Origin: a virus
Virus record (IMG/VR): IMGVR_UViG_3300041809_000180
Location: 1-27,570 of that record
Length of the DNA: 27,570 bases
Reading direction: 5' to 3' (one strand)
In this document: positions 3 to 24,112 of the stretch, in pieces
How the letters are laid out: the number at the start of each line of letters is the position of its first letter
How positions within the stretch are numbered: the first letter of the stretch is position 1
Translations under genes and position numbers: made by a program
The notes under the pieces: generated by a model
What the model saw: only the letters and a program-made list of their open reading frames with translations
Told to the model about the DNA's origin: nothing
Database searches by the model: none

Positions 3-656
3 CCTATGGCTGTTCAATTCTGTACAAATCTCTTGGAAACTGAGACTCACGAGGAATTGTATCAGCTGGGGGAGCGGTTGGGTTTGAACGTGACTGAGTG
101 CGATGTAGAAGATAGAAACGGTAAGTACATTAGTATTTGGGATAGATCATTAGCAGAATTATGTGCTCAGCATTGTGGTGAGAAAGCACTAACAAAGAGA
201 CTATCAAGTGACTTGATCGGTGCTGATGTGGAAACACTTCAGTTACTTTTGGGCGCTTACGCCAATGTGGATGGTGGTTGTTATAAAGGCTCTCTTTACT
301 TCTCTACTGCCTCGGAGGAGTTGTCAGAACAGTTGCGTTTAGTTCTGGCCCGTTGCGGAATGATCGCCTCAGTAAACGAGATCGTGCACAAGCCCTCGAA
401 GATTGTTCTTAAAGAGACTATAGAGTTTCAGGTGTGGGTTGGGACAGACACAGCATGGAAGTTAACTACATCTCGGCATAGCGTAGGTAAGTCAGATCGA
501 CTTTGTAGCAAGCGTTTCTTCTACACATATGATGGTGTTACTTATTTGATGACGCCGATTGAGTCTGTAGAAGAGGTGTCTTACGACGATGACGTATATA
601 ACTTTTCAGTTGATGAAGACGAGAGCTATTTGGTAGAAGGACTGGCTGTACATAAC
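3..656 (+). other. Intein C-terminal region with LAGLIDADG-like endonuclease remnant
   Basis: The intein end is clear. VYNFSVDEDESYLV resembles block F, and GLAVHN followed by Cys is block G, with His216, Asn217 and the +1 Cys218 as splice-junction residues (codons at 651-659). Upstream, LLLGAYANVDGG at about residues 80-91 resembles a degenerate LAGLIDADG helix. It is preceded by the usual basic/Ser segment and followed by a typical S-x-E-L-x-x-x-L-x-L-x-L-x-R-x-G-x-x-A stretch. The N-terminal splicing blocks A and B and the first LAGLIDADG copy would lie upstream of the window. The splice residues look intact, so splicing is plausible. Whether the endonuclease still cuts is unknown, because its catalytic segment reads NVDGG rather than DADGS. 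Confidence 0.85.
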
Positions 657-1955
657 TGCAAAGTCCCATATGATCTGTGTTCTAACTGTACAGATTGGAG
701 ACGCTATGAGGAAGCGAAAGCTACGTTTGATCAGGTTAACCACAAAAGCATATCGGCAGCTGTTCTTGAGGTACATAAGAAATATCCAATACGGGGTCTC
801 TCGATAACTAGAAATGATTACTGTGAGCATCTTAGAAAAGCTCTTAATAAGATCATGCCTAATGGTTTGAAGAATTATGCAATCAATGACTACCCAAGAT
901 TCTTTGATATTTCAGTAGTGTTCATAGGGGCAGATAAGACAGCCAAGGTAATGGCAAAATTGGCTTCTGTATCTAGTTTTAGCCACGTGGCTGGAGATGC
1001 TATCCCATCATGGCAGGTAGCAGAGGTGATGGGATACTCCACGGAGGAGCCTATGGAGAAGGCAGCTTCAGTAGGGCATGTTCTTCCTAATATCAAAGCT
1101 GCAGCTGAGATCAAATCAGGGGAGATCGAAAAAGATGTTGTGCCCTCGCAGTTTGGTGGCAAAGCCGTACCAGCTAAGGACGACATACCTAACGATATAC
1201 TGGATACGCTGGGTAAAGGAGATTTGAGTGAAGCTCTCTCCACCCCAACCATGATGGGTATGCTTCTACGCCCACGTGAGTTTCAGCGTATAACAATCAT
1301 CAGCATGGGTAACAAGCCTTTGGCTGATGAATTGGACAACAAGGGTATTGTGTTTCCTCACACAGATGAGGATGAGTCCCCTGCAGATATAGGGTCTGGT
1401 CACTTCAGTGATATGATCAAGAAGCTACTAATGCCATTAATGGAGGGGCGTAGCTCACTAGAACCGGTAGCCAAACGGCGTATGATTAAGATCACGATAA
1501 TGGGTGGACCTAAAGAGGAGTCGTCTCTTCAGAAGACCTCTTCTCATCCTTTTATGCAGAAAATTGCTGCTATGTATAATGGGTACATACGAGGAGCTAT
1601 TTCTTGCTTAAAGGATATTCCATCAACAGTAGACTCTGATTCTGGTCTGTGGAGTGCTATATATGGTAAAGGTATTGGCGACTCTATGTTTAAGCTTGCT
1701 GATGGGGCTCAACCTGCTCATGTTTTGGGGGCAGCAATAGTTGCAGAAGCGATATCAGTTATGGCCAGAAGAGATGTAAAGAGGCAGGAATTACAAGGGC
1801 AGCAGGCTGGTCTAATAGAAGATCTGATAGCCAGTCACCCACACGCCCTAGCCTCTTTGGCAGCCCTTGGCGCTTTACATGCAGAAGGTTCTTCCCTTCC
1901 GAAGGATTTACTAGCAAAATTGGTGGGGATAGGTAAGAACGTCATTTCTCGGTGA
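3..1955 (+). CDS. Head-morphogenesis protein, interrupted by an intein (5' end outside window)
   Basis: The reading frame is open to the left edge, so the gene is truncated by the window; the ATG at 6 lies inside the intein. Numbering from that ATG, residues 1-217 are the C-terminal part of an intein and residues 218-649 are the C-extein. The extein begins at Cys218 and has a CxxC pair (C225, C228), a later YCEH (C273, H275) and FFDISVVFIGAD at 299-310. From memory, this CxxC/YCxH/FFDIS pattern occurs in a conserved family of large-phage virion proteins encoded just before the capsid gene; some are labelled VrlC-like. The C-terminal part has Ala-rich helices. The position upstream of core-like and capsid genes supports a role in head assembly. 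The biochemical function is not visible in the sequence; a protease or core protein is possible. The next gene follows with a 77-nt gap. Confidence 0.72.
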   Translation, partial: PMAVQFCTNLLETETHEELYQLGERLGLNVTECDVEDRNGKYISIWDRSLAELCAQHCGEKALTKRLSSDLIGADVETLQLLLGAYANVDGGCYKGSLYFSTASEELSEQLRLVLARCGMIASVNEIVHKPSKIVLKETIEFQVWVGTDTAWKLTTSRHSVGKSDRLCSKRFFYTYDGVTYLMTPIESVEEVSYDDDVYNFSVDEDESYLVEGLAVHNCKVPYDLCSNCTDWRRYEEAKATFDQVNHKSISAAVLEVHKKYPIRGLSITRNDYCEHLRKALNKIMPNGLKNYAINDYPRFFDISVVFIGADKTAKVMAKLASVSSFSHVAGDAIPSWQVAEVMGYSTEEPMEKAASVGHVLPNIKAAAEIKSGEIEKDVVPSQFGGKAVPAKDDIPNDILDTLGKGDLSEALSTPTMMGMLLRPREFQRITIISMGNKPLADELDNKGIVFPHTDEDESPADIGSGHFSDMIKKLLMPLMEGRSSLEPVAKRRMIKITIMGGPKEESSLQKTSSHPFMQKIAAMYNGYIRGAISCLKDIPSTVDSDSGLWSAIYGKGIGDSMFKLADGAQPAHVLGAAIVAEAISVMARRDVKRQELQGQQAGLIEDLIASHPHALASLAALGALHAEGSSLPKDLLAKLVGIGKNVISR

Positions 1956-5159: not shown

Positions 5160-6281
5160 ATGAGCGTTCCATCCAGAGTTTTGAATGATCTCTTTACTCA
5201 GAAGCTTGATTCTTCTGAAGGACAAGAGAAGATCGCTGAGTACGCTGGTACATACATCCGTGACCGTTTGCGTGAAGTTTCTTTCGCAAGAAAGATCACT
5301 CCACCGCAACAGGTAACACGGGCAGATTGCCAGCGTTCAGTTAATCACGATACTCTCGTGAAGATCGTTGACGTAGAACCAAAGAGCCGTGCAATGTCTA
5401 TGACCTTCCGTGGTCAACCGACTGCTCGTTTCATCCGTGCACCACGTGCGGAGGTTGCCTTCTTCACCATCTCCTCGGAAAAGTTCGAGAAGAGTGAACA
5501 GGAACTTTTGGCCTACGAAATGCCAATCACGAAGATCATTGAGGACAACTCGGTCAAGGATATTCAAGAGATCGAAGACCGTGAGTTCACAATCCATATT
5601 GAAGCAGCTGTCCAGGCTCTTCAACAGGAAGCCAATGGTAACGTCGTTACCTGCCTTAACGCTGCAACCGTCCAGGCTGGCAGTGTAGTTGAGTTCTCGG
5701 TACGTAAGGGCGAGCTGGCTCGTAACGCTACTACAGAGACCTCGGCATCCTTGCCAATCCAGAAGCCAGACCTAGTCAACCTGTTCAAGATGCTGTCGGG
5801 AAACCGTCTGCGTGGCGAAATGGTGTTGATGACGGAAGTAGACTGGGATGACATTCTTCAGTGGACCACTGAAGATGTTGGTAACAAGATCGCCAGCGAG
5901 ACCACTGTTGAGGGATACAAGTACAACTTGCTCCTTGGCCGTGCATACTGCCGTACGATCAAGACAGACATTCTTCGTCCAGGTAACCTCTATCTGTTCA
6001 CGAAGCCAGACTTCTTCGGTAAGTTCTTCATCCTGAACAACACGAAGTTCTACATTGACAAGATTGCCAATATGATCACTTGGCAGTCGTGGGAAGATAT
6101 CGCTATGAGCGTTATCAATATCGCTGCTGTTCGTAAGCTTGAGCTCTACTCGGGTGATGCGTCCAGTCTTGATACCGATAGCATCCTTTCTAGCGTCATC
6201 CCATTGGCTGAGGAAGATCTTGGTCAAGAGAATAACCAGGTAGATCAGGGCCTGGTCTATCCTCAGATTGAGACCTACTAA
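5160..6281 (+). CDS. Major capsid protein (HK97-fold type)
   Basis: The product is 373 aa with an AGAGG ribosome site before ATG 5160. It has the character of large-phage HK97-fold capsid proteins. A helical N-arm (RVLNDLFTQKL) leads to a basic beta region RFIRAPRAEVAFF. Next comes the long spine-like helix region containing EMPITKIIEDNSVKDIQEIEDREF, then a helix IEAAVQALQQEA and a beta-rich C-terminal half. It would form the icosahedral shell. The gene follows the decoration-like gene and is closed by a strong terminator, consistent with very high expression. No obvious N-terminal cleavage site can be assigned by eye. Confidence 0.82.
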   Translation: MSVPSRVLNDLFTQKLDSSEGQEKIAEYAGTYIRDRLREVSFARKITPPQQVTRADCQRSVNHDTLVKIVDVEPKSRAMSMTFRGQPTARFIRAPRAEVAFFTISSEKFEKSEQELLAYEMPITKIIEDNSVKDIQEIEDREFTIHIEAAVQALQQEANGNVVTCLNAATVQAGSVVEFSVRKGELARNATTETSASLPIQKPDLVNLFKMLSGNRLRGEMVLMTEVDWDDILQWTTEDVGNKIASETTVEGYKYNLLLGRAYCRTIKTDILRPGNLYLFTKPDFFGKFFILNNTKFYIDKIANMITWQSWEDIAMSVINIAAVRKLELYSGDASSLDTDSILSSVIPLAEEDLGQENNQVDQGLVYPQIETY

Positions 6282-7307: not shown

Positions 7308-7829
7308 ATGGCTCAGCAACTACAAGGTCTGGATGGAGTATCTGGTGGAGGAACCAGTCCTCTATTCAATTCCTTTATTCAAACAGTCAGATTCTTCATG
7401 AGAGATCATCCCCAGCTTAACCGGCTGGTAAAGGGGGAGGAACACTCAGATAGAATGATCTCGTGGGCCATCATGGACTTTCTGTCTGATTGGGCAGGTA
7501 CTCCACCAGACCTGGGCTATATGACCTTGGAAGAAATGTTCTACAAACATTACCAGTCATTCGCTCTTCGTGGAACCTGTGTGGCTCTGTTGCAGTCTAT
7601 CGGTATCCTCCAGACCCGTAACCAACTACAATTCTCTGACGGCGGTATAAGCGTGGACGCTAATAACAAAGCACCTATGTGGATGCAATGGATCAGAGAC
7701 TTCTCCACCAAGTATGAACAAGAAAAAGTCCAGAAGAAGGTGTCGATCAATATTGCTAACATGATGACAAGCTTCTCTGGTGTTCATACCGAGTATTTCT
7801 TCGTTAATGGCTGGTACGGAGTCTATTGA
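7308..7829 (+). CDS. Probable neck/head-tail connector protein
   Basis: The product is 173 aa and its ATG directly follows the previous stop. It is mostly helical and aromatic-rich: FIQTVRFFMRDHPQLNRLV, MISWAIMDFLSDWAG and YMTLEEMFYKHYQSFALRG, then a short beta region and MWMQWIRDFSTKYEQEKV. Such compact helical proteins encoded shortly after the capsid gene are often head-completion adaptors. That assignment rests on synteny, not on a recognised motif. The downstream neighbour is a free-standing HNH gene, so this gene was probably once adjacent to the gene now at 8919. Confidence 0.6.
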   Translation: MAQQLQGLDGVSGGGTSPLFNSFIQTVRFFMRDHPQLNRLVKGEEHSDRMISWAIMDFLSDWAGTPPDLGYMTLEEMFYKHYQSFALRGTCVALLQSIGILQTRNQLQFSDGGISVDANNKAPMWMQWIRDFSTKYEQEKVQKKVSINIANMMTSFSGVHTEYFFVNGWYGVY

Positions 7830-7868
7830 CAATGGATGGTGCCCGTGGTAAACTTCCTGAGATTGAGG

Positions 7869-7890
7869 GTATAAGACTCTCACTAGGAGG
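7869..7890 (+). promoter_or_regulatory. Shared HNH-cassette leader, copy 1
   Basis: GTATAAG (7869-7875), 10 nt, GGAG (7886-7889), 8 nt, then ATG 7898. The same elements with identical spacing precede the HNH gene at 19150. GTATAAG could be a -10-like or phage late promoter core, or a processing site. No convincing -35 is visible. Confidence 0.45.
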
Positions 7891-7897
7891 TTTTAGT

Positions 7898-8857
7898 ATG
7901 GGACGACCACGAACACTTGATTACGATAAGATCAAAGAGATGTACGAGCAAGACTACACTTTGAACGAGATTGCTAGAGCCATAGGCTCTGAGCATACAA
8001 GTGTGGGCGATGCTGTAGAACGTATGGGTCTGCCAAAGAGGCCAGGACACCCACAAGGAAAACTGGATGTAAAGAAAGATGAGATCATTGCTGATTATTT
8101 ATCTGGGTTATCCGCTATCCAGGTAGCTGAAAAGCATGACTGTCACGCTTCCAGCATAAAGGAGCTGCTTGCTAGAAATGGAATAGAGCTACGGCACGGC
8201 GCTAAGAGAAGTGATCTAAATAATAAGTTAGGCATACTTCTTGGCTGTCATTACTTCATCCCAACAGTAGAGTGGTTTCAGGAACAGCTGAGCATCCACA
8301 AAACTGCTGCTGCCATAGCTAGACACTACGACATCCCGTACGGGACATTTATGGAGCGTGCGACTAAACTGGGGTTTGAGTTTCCTGTGTGGCGTGGAGG
8401 TCCTGGTCCTGCAGGTAGTCCGTTGAGACAAGAGATACCAACCAAAGAGGCCATTCAGCTTTCAGATGAAGGGTGGAGCTATGAGAAACTGGCTGATAGG
8501 TATGGAGTTTCCTACGGGGTCATCAACAGACGGATGAGAGAAGCTGGCTACTCCGCACCTAAAGGGCGAATGAGGAAGTATTCTCTAGACTCTGTTTTTG
8601 TGAGTACATCGCATAAACATAAGAAGATCTTGGAGGAATTGGGCATTCGTGCTTGTGAGATTTGTGGGGAAGATCAAGTCTTAGACTTTTGTCACATAGT
8701 TGCACAGGATGATGAAGGACCTACAGTCTCTGATAACTGTTTGGTTCTTTGTCCGACTCATCATCGCAAATTCGATAAGCATATCCTCAAGCCCTCTGAA
8801 CAGGCTAAAGTACAGGACAAGGTAGAGGCAGCACTAGCTAAGTATGGAAAGAACTAA
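7898..8857 (+). CDS. Free-standing HNH homing endonuclease with four HTH repeats
   Basis: ATG 7898 is chosen because AGGAGG lies 7 nt upstream; the frame is open to 7826. The product is about 319 aa. It begins GRPR, an AT-hook-like core. It then shows four helix-turn-helix-like repeats at about 20-46, 71-96, 133-160 and 193-218 (for example LNEIARAIGSEHTSVGDAVE and YEKLADRYGVSYGVINRRM). The C-terminal HNH nuclease has C253/C256, CH at 265-266, N280, C285 and HH at 288-289. The HTH array would recognise DNA and the HNH domain would nick or cut it. It interrupts the virion cluster between the connector-like gene and the 8919 gene, and carries its own leader and terminator. This is typical of a mobile endonuclease gene, not of virion assembly. 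Confidence 0.88.
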   Translation: MGRPRTLDYDKIKEMYEQDYTLNEIARAIGSEHTSVGDAVERMGLPKRPGHPQGKLDVKKDEIIADYLSGLSAIQVAEKHDCHASSIKELLARNGIELRHGAKRSDLNNKLGILLGCHYFIPTVEWFQEQLSIHKTAAAIARHYDIPYGTFMERATKLGFEFPVWRGGPGPAGSPLRQEIPTKEAIQLSDEGWSYEKLADRYGVSYGVINRRMREAGYSAPKGRMRKYSLDSVFVSTSHKHKKILEELGIRACEICGEDQVLDFCHIVAQDDEGPTVSDNCLVLCPTHHRKFDKHILKPSEQAKVQDKVEAALAKYGKN

Positions 8858-8871
8858 AGAGAGAGAGAAAA

Positions 8872-8896
8872 AGAGAAGCCTTCCGGCTTTTCTTTA
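8872..8896 (+). terminator. Terminator after first HNH gene (repeat copy 1)
   Basis: AGAGAAGCC (8872-8880), a TTCC loop, and GGCTTTTCT (8885-8893) form a 9-bp stem with one G-U pair and a T-rich 3' arm. The 16 nt GGCTTTTCTTTAGCCC (8885-8900) recur exactly at 20002-20017 after the other HNH gene. Confidence 0.75.
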
Positions 8897-8902
8897 GCCC
8901 AC

Positions 8903-8919
8903 GAATTCAGGAGATCACA
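8903..8919 (+). promoter_or_regulatory. RBS leader, second copy of the 17-nt repeat
   Basis: GAATTCAGGAGATCACA, identical to 2015-2031, with AGGAG 6 nt before ATG 8919. It lies just after the HNH terminator, so it provides fresh translation initiation for the displaced virion gene. Confidence 0.55.
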
Positions 8920-9365
8920 TGTACATTGTTAGAACATTCAACAACCCAGATGAGCTAGTAGATTTCTTGAATGGTGCCGTGCGATGCAAGCCACTAGCTA
9001 GCACTGTTTATGGTCTAAATGGACTCACAGTGATCATCAATGATGGTAGTGCTGATCGGACTACTACTCTATCAGATCCAACTGGTGTTGGTCTCTCACC
9101 ATCAGCTATTCTTACTCAGATCAGAGCCACTAATGCCAGCATGACTGCTGTAAAGGTTCGTTTCTATGGACAGGCTCCACAGAAACCTCTATTTATCGTA
9201 GACGTACAGGGGTTCATTGTCCGTGGTAGTGGCACAGCCAATACAATCCTTGGTTTTCCAACATCAGATACCACTGTTTCCGAAATTGCTACTACAGACA
9301 TCATTAAGATCACCGCCTCAATCTCAGGTGGTCCAAGATACGACGTCATCTACCACACTACCTAA
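8919..9365 (+). CDS. Small beta-rich virion protein related to the sheath modules
   Basis: The product is 148 aa with AGGAG before ATG 8919. A short helical N-terminus (FNNPDELVDFLNGAV) is followed by a beta module at about 33-115. It contains YGLNGLTVIINDG, LSDPTGVGLSPSAILTQI and GTANTILGF. The same signposts (MNGLVLNVSINNG, FSDPTALGLDAGQVCDQI, GSANTVLGF) occur in the large sheath protein at 15720. The module also recalls the flagellin hook IN type repeat of FliD. It is probably a structural protein of the neck or tail; the precise position is unknown. Confidence 0.68.
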   Translation: MYIVRTFNNPDELVDFLNGAVRCKPLASTVYGLNGLTVIINDGSADRTTTLSDPTGVGLSPSAILTQIRATNASMTAVKVRFYGQAPQKPLFIVDVQGFIVRGSGTANTILGFPTSDTTVSEIATTDIIKITASISGGPRYDVIYHTT

Positions 9366-15719: not shown

Positions 15720-18700
15720 ATGGCTACGTCACCCCTTCTTCAGCCAGGCGTTGAGGTTATTCAAGAATTTCGTACTGTCAGTCCGACCATCCTTACCCCT
15801 ACCCTGGTTCCATGCGCCATTGCACCAGCTTTCCAGGTTGTTGATGCACTGACCACAAATGCAGCCGGTAGCCAGGTAGCCAACTCTGCTGCCGTTGTGT
15901 CAGTTCCTGCTCTATTGACTTCAGCTAATCCCGCTCCATTCACAGGAATGAATGGCTTGGTTCTGAACGTGAGCATCAACAATGGTCCAATCCAGACCTT
16001 TACCTTCTCAGATCCAACTGCTCTTGGTCTGGATGCTGGTCAGGTCTGTGATCAGATTGCTTCTCAATCGCCAGCAGGTTTTGGTGCTTATGTAGTCGAC
16101 AGAGATGGCACCAACTTTGTAGAACTTCGTACAACTGCTACTGGCGATGGACAGTATCTGAAGGTTCTTGCTGGTTCTGCCAATACAGTCCTTGGATTTG
16201 CAGACGGGTACCAAGCTGCTGGTGTTTCTACATACAACCAGACTGCTGTTCAGATCGAACAAGACAACTTTCCAGATCCGTTGGGTCTTGATGGTGAGCA
16301 GGTTGTTGACACAGATTCGATCCGTGTATTCATCAACAGAGGAAGCTCTTTGCAGGAGCTGTCTCGTAGTCAAACATTCTTGCGGAACAAGAAGAAGGTT
16401 ACCTACAACACCAGCACCAGTGTGTCTTTCCCTGTAGGTCCAGCAACTTTTGTTGGAATGACTGTTACCTTCCAGCAAGGGCTTCAGGGTACCGTTGAGA
16501 CTTACACTATGGTCTCTAATCCAACCAATATTGCAGACTTGGTGACGGCTCTTAATGCTTTGTTTGCTCCTCCTAGTGCTTCTACCCCTGCTGCTGTAGC
16601 ATCAGCTGTCGGTAATACTCTCGCACTCACTTCTGAGGCTGGATATCTCTACATTGGAGCTTCAACTATTGATGCATACTTCGGTTGGACTCCAGGTGAT
16701 ACGGTATTTACGCTGAATGTCGTAGACGATGGTGATGGTGATGCTACAAGTCCGATCATTCAAGTAGCATCTGATAATTTTGCTACTCCTGCTGGTCCAG
16801 CTTCTATCACAGGTACAGTTGCTGTCACTGCTCCTCTAGCTGTTCATAACAAGACGATCTTAATGTCGGTGGATGGCGGTCCTCAGCAAGAGCTGTTGAT
16901 CAATGCTGGTCCAATTGTTGGAGCTACTGGCGCTACTAACGTAGGTCTTGATGGGCTTACTTTCAACTTTACAGTGAATGGAAATGCTAAGGCATGTACA
17001 TTTTCCTCTCCTGCTGCACTATCTGATGCTATTGATCAGATCAATGCTGCTGCAGGTATCACTGTCTGCTATGTAGTCGGTTCTGGCACTACTCTTCAAT
17101 TTCAGGTTGGTGGAGCTACGGCCATTGAGGGTGGAGCAGTCACACTGGTGTACGGCGGATCTGCTGACGACACTCTTTGGGGTCTTCTAAGCCTCAGCAG
17201 TTTGGTCACTAGTCCAACAGCATCTGTGGTGTATCAGACCATTACACTCTCAAATCTAGTATCAGAGATCAATGCGATTATGGGAGCAGGCTTTGCCTCT
17301 ATCTTCAGTACTCATCTGGTTCTAAGCTCTTCTATCAACGGAGCTGAATCCGAAGTTAGACTGGGGATGGGTACAGCGAACTCAGATCTAGGCTTCACTG
17401 ATAATGCAGTAGCTAACGGTCTTCCATATGCACCTAAGGTAGGTGACGCTGTTTATGCTGATGGAGCATTCATTGGAAATGTTGCAGCAGTAGCTCCTGG
17501 TGGAGATTCTACAAAGCTGAAACTGAATCAAGAGAATGCCCTTACCTTCACAGCACAGGCTATGTTCATCGAAGCGATGAACATTCCTCTGCCAATTCCA
17601 TCAGATCGCCCAACACCAGATTTGGTTATTGATCTGTCTGGTGCAGTGTTGGTAAAGATGGAAGTCCTTCGTGATACTGAAGGCTTTGCTCTCTCGAACG
17701 CCAGCGGATCTCTGATCATTCAGTACAAAGCCCTTCGTCTTGATGTGACTCCACAATCTAAGACACCGGCTCTATTGAACTTCTCGGATATCATCACTCT
17801 CGAGACAGCTTTGGGGCCGCTGACTACAGATAACCCACTTGCATTGATGCTTTACTTCATGATGCTCAATGCTCCTGGTGTCACGATTTCTGGTGTAGGT
17901 GTTCCTGACGTAAGCACAGCTGAGCCAGATGGTACCGTGGCTGGCTATGAAGCAGCTCTGACATTCCTTGAGGCTCAAGAGGTTTATGCTCTTGCTCCGG
18001 GTTCTCAGGAGGGTGGAGTTCACCAGGCATGTGTCTCTCACGTAGTAGCAATGTCAGCACCTGAGGCTGGTGGAGAACGTGTTGTCTTCATCAATCCAGC
18101 CATGCCAGATGAGGCACTACCTGCTTTGGTGGGAAGTGGAGAGGGAGACAGCCTTCCTTCTACAAACTGGTTTGATACGCACATTGCCAGTCTGGCTTCA
18201 GATCTGTTGGCCAAGAATATCAATCCAGTTGGTACGATCTCAGTAGATGATGGTCTGTACCTGACTGTAGCTGGAGAGACTGCCAAGTACAACATCGCTC
18301 AGGTCTCAGGAACAAGAGTCCTCGTAAGAGTTGCTTTTGCTCCAGGTCAGAACGATGACGGTTTCTACTCTACAAGCAATCTACCATCTACATTGATCAG
18401 TGATGCATTCACCATCTACATCCGTGGTGCTAAGTTGGTCACTTCTACTGGTGCTCCAGACTACGATGCTATTGCACAAGCATACGCTGATACAGGTGCC
18501 TCTTACCTGAATCGTAGAGTTCGTATGACTGCTCCACAAAATGTTGGAGCTATCGTCAATGGAACAGAAGCTCTACTGCCTGGGTACTACATGTGCAGTG
18601 CTTTGGCGGGTATGGTAGGTCAACTGCCACCACAGCAGGGATTCACGAACTACCCAATCACTGGATTCACCAGTGTTGTAGGTTCGAACGATGTGTTCAG

Positions 18701-19100
18701 TCGCCAGCAAATGAACGTGGGTGCTGGTGGCGGAACATGGTGGGTCATTCAAAGTACGGCTGGAGCACCTCTTCAGACCCGTATGCAGGTCACAACTGAT
18801 CTGACTAGCGTAGAGACCCGTGAGCACTCAATCACTAGCATCGTGGACTTTGTAGCAAAGTTCATGCGTGCTGGTCTGAGAAACTTCATTGGTCGTTTCA
18901 ACATCACTCAGCCATTCTTGGATTCACTATCCACAGTGGTACAAGGACAGCTGGCCTTCCTCAGAGAGGCAGGAATTCTGGTGGGTGGAGATTTGAATAA
19001 CCTGGTTCAGGATTCTACAGCACCAGACACTGTTCTGGTAGACGTGACCTTGGATGTCCCTTATCCGTGCAATTATATCAGATTGACGCTTTTGCTATAG
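15720..19100 (+). CDS. Tail sheath protein with inserted tandem beta modules
   Basis: The product is 1126 aa, with AGGAGG before ATG 15720. The N-terminus (LLQPGVEVIQEF) and C-terminal third are sheath-like. The latter has YNIAQVSGTRVLVRVAF, GTEALLPGYYMCSALAGMVG, MQVTTDLTSVETREHSIT, a helix VDFVAKFMRAGLRNFIGRFN and a final beta strand VLVDVTLDVPYPCNYIRLTL. Known contractile sheaths share such a C-terminal domain that links subunits. The protein is far longer than common sheaths (about 400-700 aa). The excess is at about 70-570, where four related beta modules occur. They carry NGL.L.V..N, (S)DP and I..IN signposts and end in GSANTVLGF or GTANSDLGF. These probably decorate the outside of the sheath. 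The assignment as sheath is fairly strong; the modules' role is inference. Confidence 0.74.
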   Translation: MATSPLLQPGVEVIQEFRTVSPTILTPTLVPCAIAPAFQVVDALTTNAAGSQVANSAAVVSVPALLTSANPAPFTGMNGLVLNVSINNGPIQTFTFSDPTALGLDAGQVCDQIASQSPAGFGAYVVDRDGTNFVELRTTATGDGQYLKVLAGSANTVLGFADGYQAAGVSTYNQTAVQIEQDNFPDPLGLDGEQVVDTDSIRVFINRGSSLQELSRSQTFLRNKKKVTYNTSTSVSFPVGPATFVGMTVTFQQGLQGTVETYTMVSNPTNIADLVTALNALFAPPSASTPAAVASAVGNTLALTSEAGYLYIGASTIDAYFGWTPGDTVFTLNVVDDGDGDATSPIIQVASDNFATPAGPASITGTVAVTAPLAVHNKTILMSVDGGPQQELLINAGPIVGATGATNVGLDGLTFNFTVNGNAKACTFSSPAALSDAIDQINAAAGITVCYVVGSGTTLQFQVGGATAIEGGAVTLVYGGSADDTLWGLLSLSSLVTSPTASVVYQTITLSNLVSEINAIMGAGFASIFSTHLVLSSSINGAESEVRLGMGTANSDLGFTDNAVANGLPYAPKVGDAVYADGAFIGNVAAVAPGGDSTKLKLNQENALTFTAQAMFIEAMNIPLPIPSDRPTPDLVIDLSGAVLVKMEVLRDTEGFALSNASGSLIIQYKALRLDVTPQSKTPALLNFSDIITLETALGPLTTDNPLALMLYFMMLNAPGVTISGVGVPDVSTAEPDGTVAGYEAALTFLEAQEVYALAPGSQEGGVHQACVSHVVAMSAPEAGGERVVFINPAMPDEALPALVGSGEGDSLPSTNWFDTHIASLASDLLAKNINPVGTISVDDGLYLTVAGETAKYNIAQVSGTRVLVRVAFAPGQNDDGFYSTSNLPSTLISDAFTIYIRGAKLVTSTGAPDYDAIAQAYADTGASYLNRRVRMTAPQNVGAIVNGTEALLPGYYMCSALAGMVGQLPPQQGFTNYPITGFTSVVGSNDVFSRQQMNVGAGGGTWWVIQSTAGAPLQTRMQVTTDLTSVETREHSITSIVDFVAKFMRAGLRNFIGRFNITQPFLDSLSTVVQGQLAFLREAGILVGGDLNNLVQDSTAPDTVLVDVTLDVPYPCNYIRLTLLL

Positions 19101-19106
19101 CAAGTG

Positions 19107-19141
19107 TTATACGAAACGTGGTATAAGGTTCATCTAAGGAG
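19107..19141 (+). promoter_or_regulatory. Shared HNH-cassette leader, copy 2, with hairpin
   Basis: GTATAAG (19121-19127), 10 nt, GGAG (19138-19141), 8 nt, then ATG 19150. Spacing is identical to copy 1 at 7869. Here the TATAA is also half of an inverted repeat, TTATAC (19107-19112) with GTATAA (19121-19126), loop GAAACGTG. Confidence 0.45.
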
Positions 19142-19149
19142 CCTTATCC

Positions 19150-19983
19150 ATGAGTCAGAGACACCCTGGAAGACCAAAGAAAACAGATCGAGGAAATTGT
19201 AAGGTAGAAGGATGCACTAAAGAAGAGCGAGTACATGGACTTTGCCAAACACACTATATTGCAGCTAGAAGAGGCCGGATAGACATGAACACTGGAGCAG
19301 AACTAAGACCAATGCAGCGAGTGCCTAGCTACGGCGAAGGTGCACGTTGTATTGTTCTCGGGTGTGGTAATAGGCCAAAGGGACGTGATTTGTGCAGTAC
19401 GCATTATCAGCAGTGGGAAAGTGGTGTAGACATTGGTGTACAAGTTCCTGATCGAAGTGTGACTAAATCAGTTGTGAATAACACTGGTGTGATGTGCTTA
19501 GTATGTGATCAACGGGCTGTTAATAGAGGCATGTGTAGCAAACATGCTCAGCAAAGAGAAGCAGGCATTATTGATAGCAATGGTGCACAGTTGCGTGAAT
19601 TAGAGCCTCGTGGAAGACGCCCATTTGACTATCGCATAGAAGATGCCGGATACATTCTCATTCGAGCTCCAGAAGGGCACCCTCATTCAAGAATTGATGG
19701 TTCTATCCTTGAGCACTGTTTGGTGATGGAAGATCACTTAGGTAGATATCTAGAGGAGTGGGAAATTGTTCATCATAGGGATGGGGATAGGTCAAACAAT
19801 GTCCTGTCTAACCTAGAGATCTATGATGGTAGAGCCAATAAAGAAAAAGGTCCTGGACATCATCCGGGTCACAGCATGGATACTCGTACAGCCGCACAAG
19901 TTATTCTGCAAGATGTAAAAGACGCAATACCAGAAGCAGTAGCTTCATTTTTAGAAGGCATCCTCAACAAAGGATCGAATTAA
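19150..19983 (+). CDS. Free-standing HNH homing endonuclease with three zinc-finger repeats
   Basis: The product is 277 aa, with AAGGAG 8 nt before ATG 19150. The N-terminus reads RHPGRPKKTDRG, an AT-hook-like core. Three short Cys/His repeats follow: C17, C22, C32, H35; C67, C72, C82, H85; and C116, C119, C129, H132 (each ending in C-x-x-H). An HNH_3-type nuclease core then occurs with LEHCLVMEDHLGR (H189), IVHHRDGDRSNN (H208, H209, N216, N217) and NLEIYD. The zinc repeats probably bind DNA and position the nuclease. The gene splits the sheath gene from the tail tube gene and has its own leader and terminator, matching the cassette at 7898 although the DNA-binding part is unrelated. It is a mobile endonuclease gene, probably of no structural role. 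Confidence 0.9.
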   Translation: MSQRHPGRPKKTDRGNCKVEGCTKEERVHGLCQTHYIAARRGRIDMNTGAELRPMQRVPSYGEGARCIVLGCGNRPKGRDLCSTHYQQWESGVDIGVQVPDRSVTKSVVNNTGVMCLVCDQRAVNRGMCSKHAQQREAGIIDSNGAQLRELEPRGRRPFDYRIEDAGYILIRAPEGHPHSRIDGSILEHCLVMEDHLGRYLEEWEIVHHRDGDRSNNVLSNLEIYDGRANKEKGPGHHPGHSMDTRTAAQVILQDVKDAIPEAVASFLEGILNKGSN

Positions 19984-19989
19984 TGCCTG

Positions 19990-20012
19990 GAAGAGCCTGC
20001 TGGCTTTTCTTT
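19990..20012 (+). terminator. Terminator after second HNH gene (repeat copy 2)
   Basis: GAAGAGCC (19990-19997), loop TGCT, GGCTTTTC (20002-20009) form an 8-bp stem with one G-U pair and a T-rich 3' arm. The 16 nt at 20002-20017 are identical to 8885-8900. Confidence 0.75.
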
Positions 20013-20052
20013 AGCCCCAAACCGTAGATTCGGTACAAGGAGATAACGCACG

Positions 20053-20799
20053 ATGTCTAATTTTAGCGATTGGAAATCCTATGAAAATTATGTCCAAGAG
20101 GGGCTGCAGGATGGTAAGTTCCTGAATGCAGGATTTACTCTTCTTTGTGCCGGTCCTCCACGTCTTGCTGGTTTGACGGGGGTTAGTGCTAATGTCAACG
20201 CACAGGCGGCTGCATTAGGCACCTCACTCACATCAAATCCTGGTCTGGCAGATCAATTGGTCTATCCAATTGGCGTTATCCAAAACGTCAATCTGTCACA
20301 CAACAGACAGTTCAGCAGAATCTTTGAAGTTGGTTCCGAGAGATCTTACTTCATCTCTGGTCGTACTGTCGGTCAGCTTGCTATCAGCCGCATTCTCTAT
20401 CACGGACCAAGCCTACTGCGTGTGATGTATGCCTACTATCAGGACAGTATTGGGGCTATCACAGTCCCAGCACTCTTTCCAAATGCAGGCATTGGTCAGC
20501 AGCCTAATCCGCATGATGTCATCATTCCTCCTGGGTATGATTACCTGTTCGTGAACTTGGCTTCTGACTTGTTCAATCAACCAATTGGCTTGATGATGTA
20601 TGTCCGTGACTCAGATCAACAGACTTATGGTGCTGTATACCTCGAGGGTTGCTACATTCCTAACCACACCTGGGCAACTGATGCTCAAGGCGTATTGATC
20701 CAAGAATCTGCTGCTGTGCAATTCGAGCGTGCAGTACCAGTATCTGTGACCAACTTGACCGTCACAAATGGTGTACTGTCTCCGGCATTAGGTCAGTAA
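20053..20799 (+). CDS. Tail tube protein
   Basis: The product is 248 aa, with AAGGAG before ATG 20053. It is beta-rich. An N-terminal segment with FSDWKSYENYVQEGLQ leads to QNVNLSHNRQFSRIFEVGSERSYF and SGRTVGQLAISRILYHGP. The later part has DLFNQPIGLMMYVRD and YLEGCYIPNHTWATDAQGV, then a final AAVQFERAVPV strand. The FEVGS-R pattern followed by a G-T-G-x-L-x-I-S-R stretch and a late C-Y-I-x-N-H strand is what tube proteins of contractile phages usually show. The gene lies after the sheath gene, as expected, apart from the inserted HNH gene. It would form the inner tube through which DNA passes. Confidence 0.75.
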   Translation: MSNFSDWKSYENYVQEGLQDGKFLNAGFTLLCAGPPRLAGLTGVSANVNAQAAALGTSLTSNPGLADQLVYPIGVIQNVNLSHNRQFSRIFEVGSERSYFISGRTVGQLAISRILYHGPSLLRVMYAYYQDSIGAITVPALFPNAGIGQQPNPHDVIIPPGYDYLFVNLASDLFNQPIGLMMYVRDSDQQTYGAVYLEGCYIPNHTWATDAQGVLIQESAAVQFERAVPVSVTNLTVTNGVLSPALGQ

Positions 20800-22483: not shown

Positions 22484-22883
22484 TACTAGGAGTGTCATAA
22501 AGCATGGTGTGGGAAAGTTGATCCCAAGACACAGTAACCTACAGTCTGGTACTTACCACCAGGGGCACAGACTGCATGATACTTTATTGATCATAGGCTA
22601 AGGAACAGTTGCAACTGCTCCTTCCCCATTTCGTGTAAACGCTTCAGTACTCAGAGGGGGCTGAGTACCTATCTCCAGATCTATCCAACACACATTTTCG
22701 GAAGGGTTCCGTTCTGTAGAACACGGTTCCAAACCTAGTATGCCAACATCGTGCCAGGGTAACTGGATCACGACTTATTGCTCTATTTTCTTGGTGAGTG
22801 ACAAGCTCGCAAGAGAATAGGCTGTCTAGTAAGAGGGCGTACTCTCCTACACAATACTTATACCAGAAACACAGATCGTTTTT
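22484..22883. other. Non-coding stretch with at least six stem-loops; candidate structured RNA
   Basis: No convincing gene occurs in this stretch. It holds a chain of inverted repeats: TGGGA/TCCCA (22510-22526); CAGTCTG/CAGACTG (22542-22574) with inner CTGG/CCAG; AAGGAaCAGT-TGCA-ACTGcTCCTT (22600-22623); GTACTCAG/CTGAGTAC (22647-22668, perfect 8 bp); TCGTGCCAG/CTGG-at-CACGA (22749-22773, 9 bp with a 2-nt bulge); and CTATTTTCTTG/CAAGAGAATAG (22783-22820, 11 bp with one G-U). A weaker GTTC/GAAC hairpin is at 22711-22722. It could be a structured RNA on either strand, the shared 3' zone of converging transcripts, or a replication or packaging site. It resembles no RNA family that I recognise. 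Confidence 0.45.
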
Positions 22884-22886
22884 CAC

Positions 22887-22984: not shown

Positions 22985-24112
22985 GTGAAACTGGTTGCCG
23001 TCGCCAAGTTGCTCCCAACGCCCGAGCAGTCCGCCGCTTTGCTGGCGACGCTCGAGCGCGTGAATGAGGCATGTGCGTGGCTGGCGGAACGAGCTTTCGA
23101 GCTGAAGTCGGCCGACAAGCTCCGACTCCAGGGACTCTACTACCGCGACCTGCGTGAGAAGTTTGGGTTGTCCTCGCAGATGGCGGTGCGGGCGATCTCC
23201 AAGGTGGTCGAGGCGTACAAGCGTGACCGCATCCGCAAGCCCAACTTCAAGCCCCATGGGGCCATCGCCTACGACCAGCGGATCATGAGTTTCAAGGCGA
23301 TGGACCGCGTTTCGCTCTTGACTATCTCGGGCCGCATCCTCGTGACCTACGTCGCCGGCTCTTACCACCGAGCGCGACTCGAAGGCGTGCGGGGACAGTC
23401 CGACCTCGTCTTGCGCAAGGGCAAGTGGTTCCTTTACGTGACCGTCGATGTCCCCGACGGTTCGCCCATCGACCCAGAGGGCTGGCTGGGCGTCGACCTC
23501 GGGATCAGAAACCTCGCAGTCGACTCGGACGGCGAGGCTCACAGCGGCGCAGCCGTCGAGGCTACGCGCCAGCGCCATCAACGTCTTCGCAACATGCTCC
23601 AACCCGTCGGCACCAAATCGGCGAAACGTCACCTTAAGAAACTCTCGGGCAAGGAGGCCCGCTTCCGTTCCCACACCAACCACGTGATCTCGAAGCACAT
23701 CGTCGCCAAGGCCAAAGGCACCGGGCGCGGCATCGCCGTCGAAGACTTGACGGGCATCCGCGAGCGGGCAACGGTCAGGAGAAGCCAGCGGGCGATGCAC
23801 TCGGGATGGGCGTTCTTTCAGTTGCGTGCGTTCCTCAGCTACAAGGCCGCCATCGCTGGCGTCAAGCTTGTGGCCGTGGACCCGCGCAACACTTCTCGGA
23901 CTTGCCCCGCGTGCGGCTACATCGACAAGGCCAACCGCAAAAGCCAGTCCGAGTTTGCTTGCAAGTCGTGCGACTTCGTCGACCATGCCGACCACGTCGG
24001 TGCGGTCAACATCGCACGCAGGGCGACCGTAAGTGCGCCTATCGTCTCGGGCTATCGTGGCGGAAAGCACTGCTTGTCCGGTCCTGCTCAGGGGCAAAGC
24101 TGCCTGCTTTAG
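22985..24112 (+). CDS. tnpB: TnpB RNA-guided nuclease (IS200/IS605 OrfB family)
   Basis: The product is 375 aa, a normal length, from GTG 22985; the ribosome site is weak. The N-terminal helical region (1-110) is followed by a beta region and a RuvC-like nuclease. Catalytic residues are visible as Asp171 in GVDLGIRNLAVD, Glu253 in IAVEDLTGI, and Asp336 in the DHADHVGAVNIA segment. Between them is the zinc ribbon C307-x2-C310 with C326-x2-C329. TnpB proteins use an RNA made from the element's right end to cut DNA next to a short motif. All key residues are present, so an active nuclease is plausible. The stop codon lies in the loop and stem of the right-end hairpin. Base composition differs strongly from the surrounding phage genes, which points to transfer from another genome. 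Confidence 0.93.
   Translation: MKLVAVAKLLPTPEQSAALLATLERVNEACAWLAERAFELKSADKLRLQGLYYRDLREKFGLSSQMAVRAISKVVEAYKRDRIRKPNFKPHGAIAYDQRIMSFKAMDRVSLLTISGRILVTYVAGSYHRARLEGVRGQSDLVLRKGKWFLYVTVDVPDGSPIDPEGWLGVDLGIRNLAVDSDGEAHSGAAVEATRQRHQRLRNMLQPVGTKSAKRHLKKLSGKEARFRSHTNHVISKHIVAKAKGTGRGIAVEDLTGIRERATVRRSQRAMHSGWAFFQLRAFLSYKAAIAGVKLVAVDPRNTSRTCPACGYIDKANRKSQSEFACKSCDFVDHADHVGAVNIARRATVSAPIVSGYRGGKHCLSGPAQGQSCLL

Follow-up and report, generated by a model that had tools for sequence, protein, structure and literature searches.

Putative homing endonuclease genes in two structural-gene slots of an Arash-like phage, with a promoter-in-hairpin leader that probably limits translation to local transcripts

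The window, i.e., the whole stretch of DNA analyzed here (27,570 bases), is an entire viral record that is itself a 27.57-kb fragment; genome-wide statements therefore come from its relatives. Genes encoding a major capsid protein (5160 to 6281) and a tail sheath (15720 to 19100) identified the window as a fragment of a contractile-tailed phage. Comparison of the capsid and sheath proteins revealed Salmonella phage Arash and Vibrio phages D69, D148, and D181 as the closest cultured relatives (26 to 29% identity), in addition to many environmental relatives. The window phage is an Arash-like large myovirus, and its structural-gene operon contains two slots occupied by HNH genes. A phage RNA polymerase subunit (PF00562) was encoded in all large relatives tested (9/9). 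In Arash, the RNA polymerase subunits beta and beta' and a sigma factor are virion proteins, and no promoter consensus was described (PMC10585845). Rfam and tRNA scans of the window gave no matches.

The first HNH gene, HNH1 (7898 to 8857, plus strand), encodes a protein with helix-turn-helix (HTH) domains and an HNH_2 nuclease domain at residues 253 to 295 (Pfam HNH_2, E = 1.7e-6; HTH_23, E = 3.9e-9); Pfam detected HTH-like stretches around residues 2 to 35 and 183 to 218. The second, HNH2 (19150 to 19983, plus strand), encodes three C/H clusters and an HNH_3 nuclease domain at residues 189 to 223 (Pfam HNH_3, E = 4.1e-8). Both nuclease matches exceed the Pfam cut-offs, and the HNH residues of HNH1 and the catalytic residues of HNH2 are invariant across five relatives each. 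The preliminary description of this DNA had considered the two proteins to have unrelated DNA-binding parts and different HNH subtypes. The two proteins were confirmed to belong to unrelated families: the hhalign probability was 0.25%, and HNH_2 with HTH domains stands against HNH_3 with three C/H clusters. A shared GRP(R/K) start had also been pointed out. The N-terminal GRPR and GRPKK are each conserved within their own family, but the families have no detectable homology to each other, and the two motifs therefore appear to be separate minor-groove-arm elements. From their sequences, HNH1 and HNH2 are putatively free-standing homing endonucleases. Further features of mobile-element type were observed in the window. 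A TnpB-like gene (22985 to 24112, plus strand; Cas12f1-like_TNB, E = 7e-21; OrfB_IS605), with no TnpA visible, is positioned right behind the structural genes. The first approximately 217 residues of an ORF at 6 to 1955 (plus strand) resemble a LAGLIDADG intein end in weak Pfam matches, and this ORF may place a mobile nuclease of yet another, third kind less than 8 kb from HNH1. The closest long relative, G003, contains inteins in a DnaB-like helicase and a ResIII-type helicase (L129:10620-13391 and L129:17245-19683).

Slot 1, the site of HNH1, is located between gene A (7308 to 7829, plus strand), which encodes a virion-region protein 98% identical at the amino acid level in relatives L031 and L032, and gene B (8919 to 9365, plus strand), which directly follows gene A in empty relatives. 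In L031 and L032, gene B begins 12 nt past gene A, compared to a gap of 1089 nt in the window. Other relatives carry an HNH_2-type gene (L034, L041, L054, and L147) or an HNH_3-type gene with an HTH domain (L026) in this slot. Slot 2, the site of HNH2, is flanked by the tail sheath gene (15720 to 19100, plus strand; phrog_279 tail sheath, E = 3.5e-7) and by a gene whose position suggests a tail tube protein (20053 to 20799, plus strand). Seventy-one distinct slot-2 alleles were found in the set. The gap is shorter than 80 nt in 21 of the 71, with the tail tube gene 11 to 79 nt past the sheath gene, and the other alleles contain a zinc-type HNH, an endonuclease VII-like gene, another HNH type, or unrelated genes; the slots also accept non-nuclease genes. 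At slots 1 and 2 alike, the insertion is absent from relatives at the same junction, and both slots are recurrent sites that hold different endonucleases in different relatives. Some near-empty slots contain scars consisting of gene 3' ends or terminator remnants. At slot 2, an endonuclease VII-like gene that L022/L251 carries in intact form is reduced in L021/L252 to about 55 nt of its 3' end, and at slot 1, remnants of CTTTAGCC are present in L060, L035, and L044. These endonuclease scars suggest repeated gain and loss. Just past the gene A stop codon, the window has what may be a remnant copy of the 3' end of that gene (7831 to 7840, plus strand; 9/10 match, p = 0.095), and a degenerate copy of about 20 nt is found past the stop codon in L033, L034, L041, and L060. 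In L028 (2660 to 3545), the C terminus of gene A (NGFYGGW) is repeated at the end of the slot-1 HNH ORF and once more behind it, and no promoter-hairpin leader was seen for this ORF. Gene A shows no co-conversion signature, its identity to empty relatives being flat up to the 3' end.

The preliminary description had drawn attention to signals shared by the two genes. The leader pattern GTATAAG-N10-GGAG-N8-ATG does occur exactly twice in the window (7869 to 7900 and 19121 to 19152), as does the 16-nt terminator sequence GGCTTTTCTTTAGCCC (8885 to 8900 and 20002 to 20017). When up to 3 mismatches were allowed, GGCTTTTCTTTAGCCC reached at least two matches in 5 of 100 shuffles, and 2.6 occurrences of the leader pattern are expected by chance with 3 mismatches. 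Only exact leader matches therefore carry weight, and the loose pattern was dropped as evidence. The identical N10/N8 spacing is not kept in relatives: L113 has GGTATAAG-N9-GGAG-N10-ATG, and L029 is without GGAG. The expectation that such signals would single out endonuclease genes failed on searching. The full leader pattern also precedes other genes in G003, G010, G011, G014, and G016, and GGCTTTTCTTTAGCCC, found in 18 viral contigs and mostly in unrelated contexts, was discarded as an endonuclease mark.

Analysis of the relatives revealed that GGTATAAG occurs 28 times in G003 (168 kb; 8.9 expected) and 13 times in G001 (133.5 kb; 2.6 expected), a 3- to 5-fold overrepresentation located mostly outside large ORFs. 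At these sites, an A-rich box stands at a constant distance of 18 nt upstream, and the base 14 nt past the first one is a purine; AA at -18/-17 is present in 29 of the 41 sites of both genomes and in 7 of 9 HNH leaders tested. A DNA ligase gene and numerous small genes have GGTATAAG in front of them, and at 40105 of G003 (minus strand) it heads a minus-strand cluster encoding helicases, DnaB, DNA polymerase A, and a RecA-like protein; the structural genes seem to be without it. GGTATAAG is a general promoter element of the lineage (nnAA box, N14, GGTATAAG), which provides a testable consensus for the Arash-related phages. Its recognition by the phage RNA polymerase is a plausible guess. In the window, promoter 1 (7848 to 7875, plus strand; GTAAAC box, N14, GGTATAAG) has the spacing of the genome-wide family and a predicted start at 7882. 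Promoter 2 (19100 to 19127, plus strand; GCAAGT box, N14, GGTATAAG) has a predicted start at 19134. The third copy (22857 to 22885, minus strand; GAAAAA box, N14, GGTATAAG at 22864) has no endonuclease gene attached. A TTGACA-17-TAAACT candidate at 7826, with TTGACA overlapping the gene A stop codon, was rejected because slot 2 has nothing alike and the GGTATAAG family explains both slots.

Inspection of the sequence and the shared 16-mer defined terminator 1 (8872 to 8900, plus strand; AGAGAAGCC-TTCC-GGCTTTTCT followed by TTAGCCC) and terminator 2 (19990 to 20017, plus strand; GAAGAGCC-TGCT-GGCTTTTC followed by TTTAGCCC). In G003, TTTAGCC or a close variant was found at 6 of 40 hairpin/T-tract sites versus 26 of 1408 T-tracts (Fisher p = 5e-5), and in G001, at 4 of 25 such sites (p = 0.012). 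A GC stem followed by TTTAGCC is a general terminator of the lineage. Genome-wide in G001 and G003, some of the terminator-like hairpins have AGCC behind their T-tract. Many other transcription units thus use the GGTATAAG promoter and the hairpin-TTTAGCC terminator, which the preliminary description itself had named as the finding that would speak against its proposal of a common expression chassis. Because both signals are general in the lineage, HNH1 and HNH2 have no special DNA cassette in common; what survives of that proposal, in altered form, is the recurrent slots with differing endonucleases and the shared leader design. The preliminary interpretation is partly supported; the commonality of the two genes is a design built from the phage's own signals and not a cassette of common descent.

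Folding of the leaders revealed hairpins around the Shine-Dalgarno (SD) sequence. Leader hairpin 1 (7869 to 7899, plus strand) consists of a 5' arm (7869 to 7881), a loop (7882 to 7886), and a 3' arm (7887 to 7899), with the SD at 7885 to 7890. It is weak when considered alone and no better than shuffles, with z = +0.5 in one test and -1.65 when positions -35 to +3 were folded. Leader hairpin 2 (19120 to 19149, plus strand), identified by folding and by covariation in relatives, pairs GG.AUAAGGUUC with GAGCCUUAUCC around the SD at 19137 to 19141. It folds at -13.2 kcal/mol with z = -3.2, or about -5.5 in a longer stretch (-3.2 to -5.6 over the tests). Positions -35 to +3 of 16 HNH leaders and of 167 structural-gene starts from the same loci were folded and scored as z against shuffles. 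The HNH leaders had a median minimum free energy of -13.9 kcal/mol and a median z of -3.15, compared to -4.0 kcal/mol and -0.07 for the structural-gene starts (p about 1e-9, an optimistic value because the HNH leaders are partly related by descent). The median z of 12 genes with the same promoter-SD-ATG pattern was 0.02, and z was -3 or lower in 1.3% of 151 SD-led ORFs of G001 and G003 versus 56% of the HNH leaders. The hairpin is weak in one or both tests in the leaders of L041 and L026-1. A hairpin over the ribosome-binding site (RBS) is thus present in HNH2 and in the 16-leader set. Many slot endonucleases share a design that is absent from ordinary genes: a promoter inside a hairpin covering the RBS.

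The hairpin is not a general trait of phage HNH leaders, as it was not found in 23 of 24 HNH genes of unrelated phages (median z = -0.17). The exception, L166, has a strong hairpin over the SD (CTCCTT/AAGGAG, z = -5), and this leader may represent another instance of such control. Nor is the hairpin a trait of any slot-2 nuclease: the endonuclease VII-like genes of L257 and L260 and the HNH types of L295, L325, and L263 are without it, unlike the endonuclease VII-like gene of L249. When the slot-2 occupants were ranked by z alone, the zinc-type HNH leaders were the top five; the same hairpin was later found in L281, at -18.1 kcal/mol. These comparisons bear on an alternative in which the HNH genes are ordinary inserted accessory genes with a functionless hairpin. 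Phage morons are single genes with their own promoter and terminator between genes that are adjacent in relatives, and both HNH genes have this arrangement. The general nature of the promoter and terminator and the non-nuclease genes in the slots fit such a reading, but the hairpin is absent from the other slot-2 occupants (median z = -0.48, n = 25; p = 3e-4 versus zinc-type HNH), from same-promoter genes, and from HNH genes elsewhere, and we regard this alternative as unlikely. Typical morons benefit the host and have host-type promoters, whereas the cargo in the window is a nuclease that is equipped with phage-type signals and an RBS hairpin.

In five promoter-bearing slot-2 leaders, arm positions 8 to 10 vary on both sides with pairing kept, whereas GGUAUAAG holds the outer arm. 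Nucleotides of the SD frequently fall in the loop instead of being paired, and for SD pairing taken by itself the difference is small (p = 0.013). An inverted repeat could also act as DNA, namely, as an operator for autorepression by the HNH protein. I-TevI provides a precedent, the repeat overlaps the promoter, and the copies of the gene A 3' end at slot 1, a possible homing-site mimic, lie beside or over the -35 region. This operator reading appears quite improbable, however, since arm sequence varies among close homologues (W2, L029, and L113) with pairing kept and the repeat invariably coincides with the SD and start codon. A chassis of common descent that is dedicated to endonucleases and has its nucleases swapped, or repeated capture of one regulatory cassette, is improbable as well: it is favored by the exact shared motifs at both HNH genes, by differing nuclease families with similar ends in the same slot (endonuclease VII-like in L249 and HTH-HNH_3 in L026), and by ATAGCAAGTGTTA, common to the window and L249 at slot 2, but the leaders are alike in promoter, SD, and pairing only, not in sequence, and general use of both signals by ordinary genes largely refutes it.

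The reading that we favor, and consider likely, is that the HNH genes are free-standing insertions that use ordinary phage signals and a promoter-in-hairpin lock that releases translation on local transcripts. The transcription start was predicted 14 nt past the first G of GGTATAAG, so that the predicted local transcript begins at or beside the hairpin loop and loses the 5' arm, which includes the -10 element; only locally started mRNA should therefore expose the RBS. The median cost of opening the SD-to-ATG region in 9 HNH leaders was 14.1 kcal/mol on the read-through transcript versus 4.1 kcal/mol on the local transcript (difference, 10.1), compared to differences of 1.6 in 12 same-promoter genes and 0.9 in 134 structural genes. 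The single control outlier (15.3 to 1.6), from slot 2 of G010, proved to be an endonuclease VII-like gene. For HNH1, the costs were 14.0 and 4.8 kcal/mol, respectively. The hairpin leaders of L114, L026-2, L157, and L159 are without the GGTATAAG promoter, which excludes release by a local start in these cases. According to the proposed mechanism, the HNH genes occupying the two slots between genes of the structural operon would each use the phage's ordinary promoter and terminator, with the -10 element forming part of the 5' arm in an RNA hairpin enclosing the RBS and reaching the start codon. Read-through mRNA from the upstream structural gene would contain both arms and be poorly translated; mRNA from the local promoter would begin at the loop, lack the 5' arm, and be translated. 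The nuclease would thus be kept off the structural-operon mRNA and its synthesis tied to its own promoter. Because GGTATAAG heads the replication cluster of G003 and the structural genes seem to be without it, expression of the HNH genes may be early or middle. A mirror image of the T4 arrangement can be envisaged tentatively, although we lean slightly against it: the HNH genes would be expressed early or in the middle period from their own promoter, perhaps by the phage RNA polymerase, and silenced by the hairpin on late structural mRNA, sparing genomes that have been replicated and await packaging, and two unrelated HNH families would have converged on this solution.

Like the free-standing seg and mob genes of T4, the genes described here are intergenic insertions in the orientation of their neighbors that are absent from relatives. 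Many seg and mob examples have been described as promoter-less cassettes, whereas most leaders here have a promoter, a hairpin, and a terminator. In Arash, slot 2 looks empty, as the next structural gene lies about 40 nt past the sheath-matching gene. The filled, empty, and scarred alleles of two structural-gene slots allow nuclease gain and loss to be traced in this lineage. Hairpin-regulated phage endonucleases are known from T4 (I-TevI, I-TevII, I-TevIII, and segB) and Aeh1 (mobE) (PMC2988022). As predicted here, all five are endonuclease genes within the transcript of another gene with a hairpin at the RBS and with their own promoter sited so that its transcript is without the 5' arm (PMC2988022). 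Differing from these cases, the proposed lock occurs here in unrelated phages with their own multisubunit RNA polymerase, in two unrelated HNH families, and in a structural, presumably late, operon, and the genes have their own terminators; as the promoter family also heads replication genes, the timing may be reversed. The promoter-in-hairpin lock is thus a type of control already described, found here in a new lineage and apparently in both of the unrelated HNH families. If this is true, hairpin-locked translation of endonucleases is not a peculiarity of T4 but arose again in a separate lineage and in two nuclease families, and it looks like a general solution for a selfish gene inside an essential operon.
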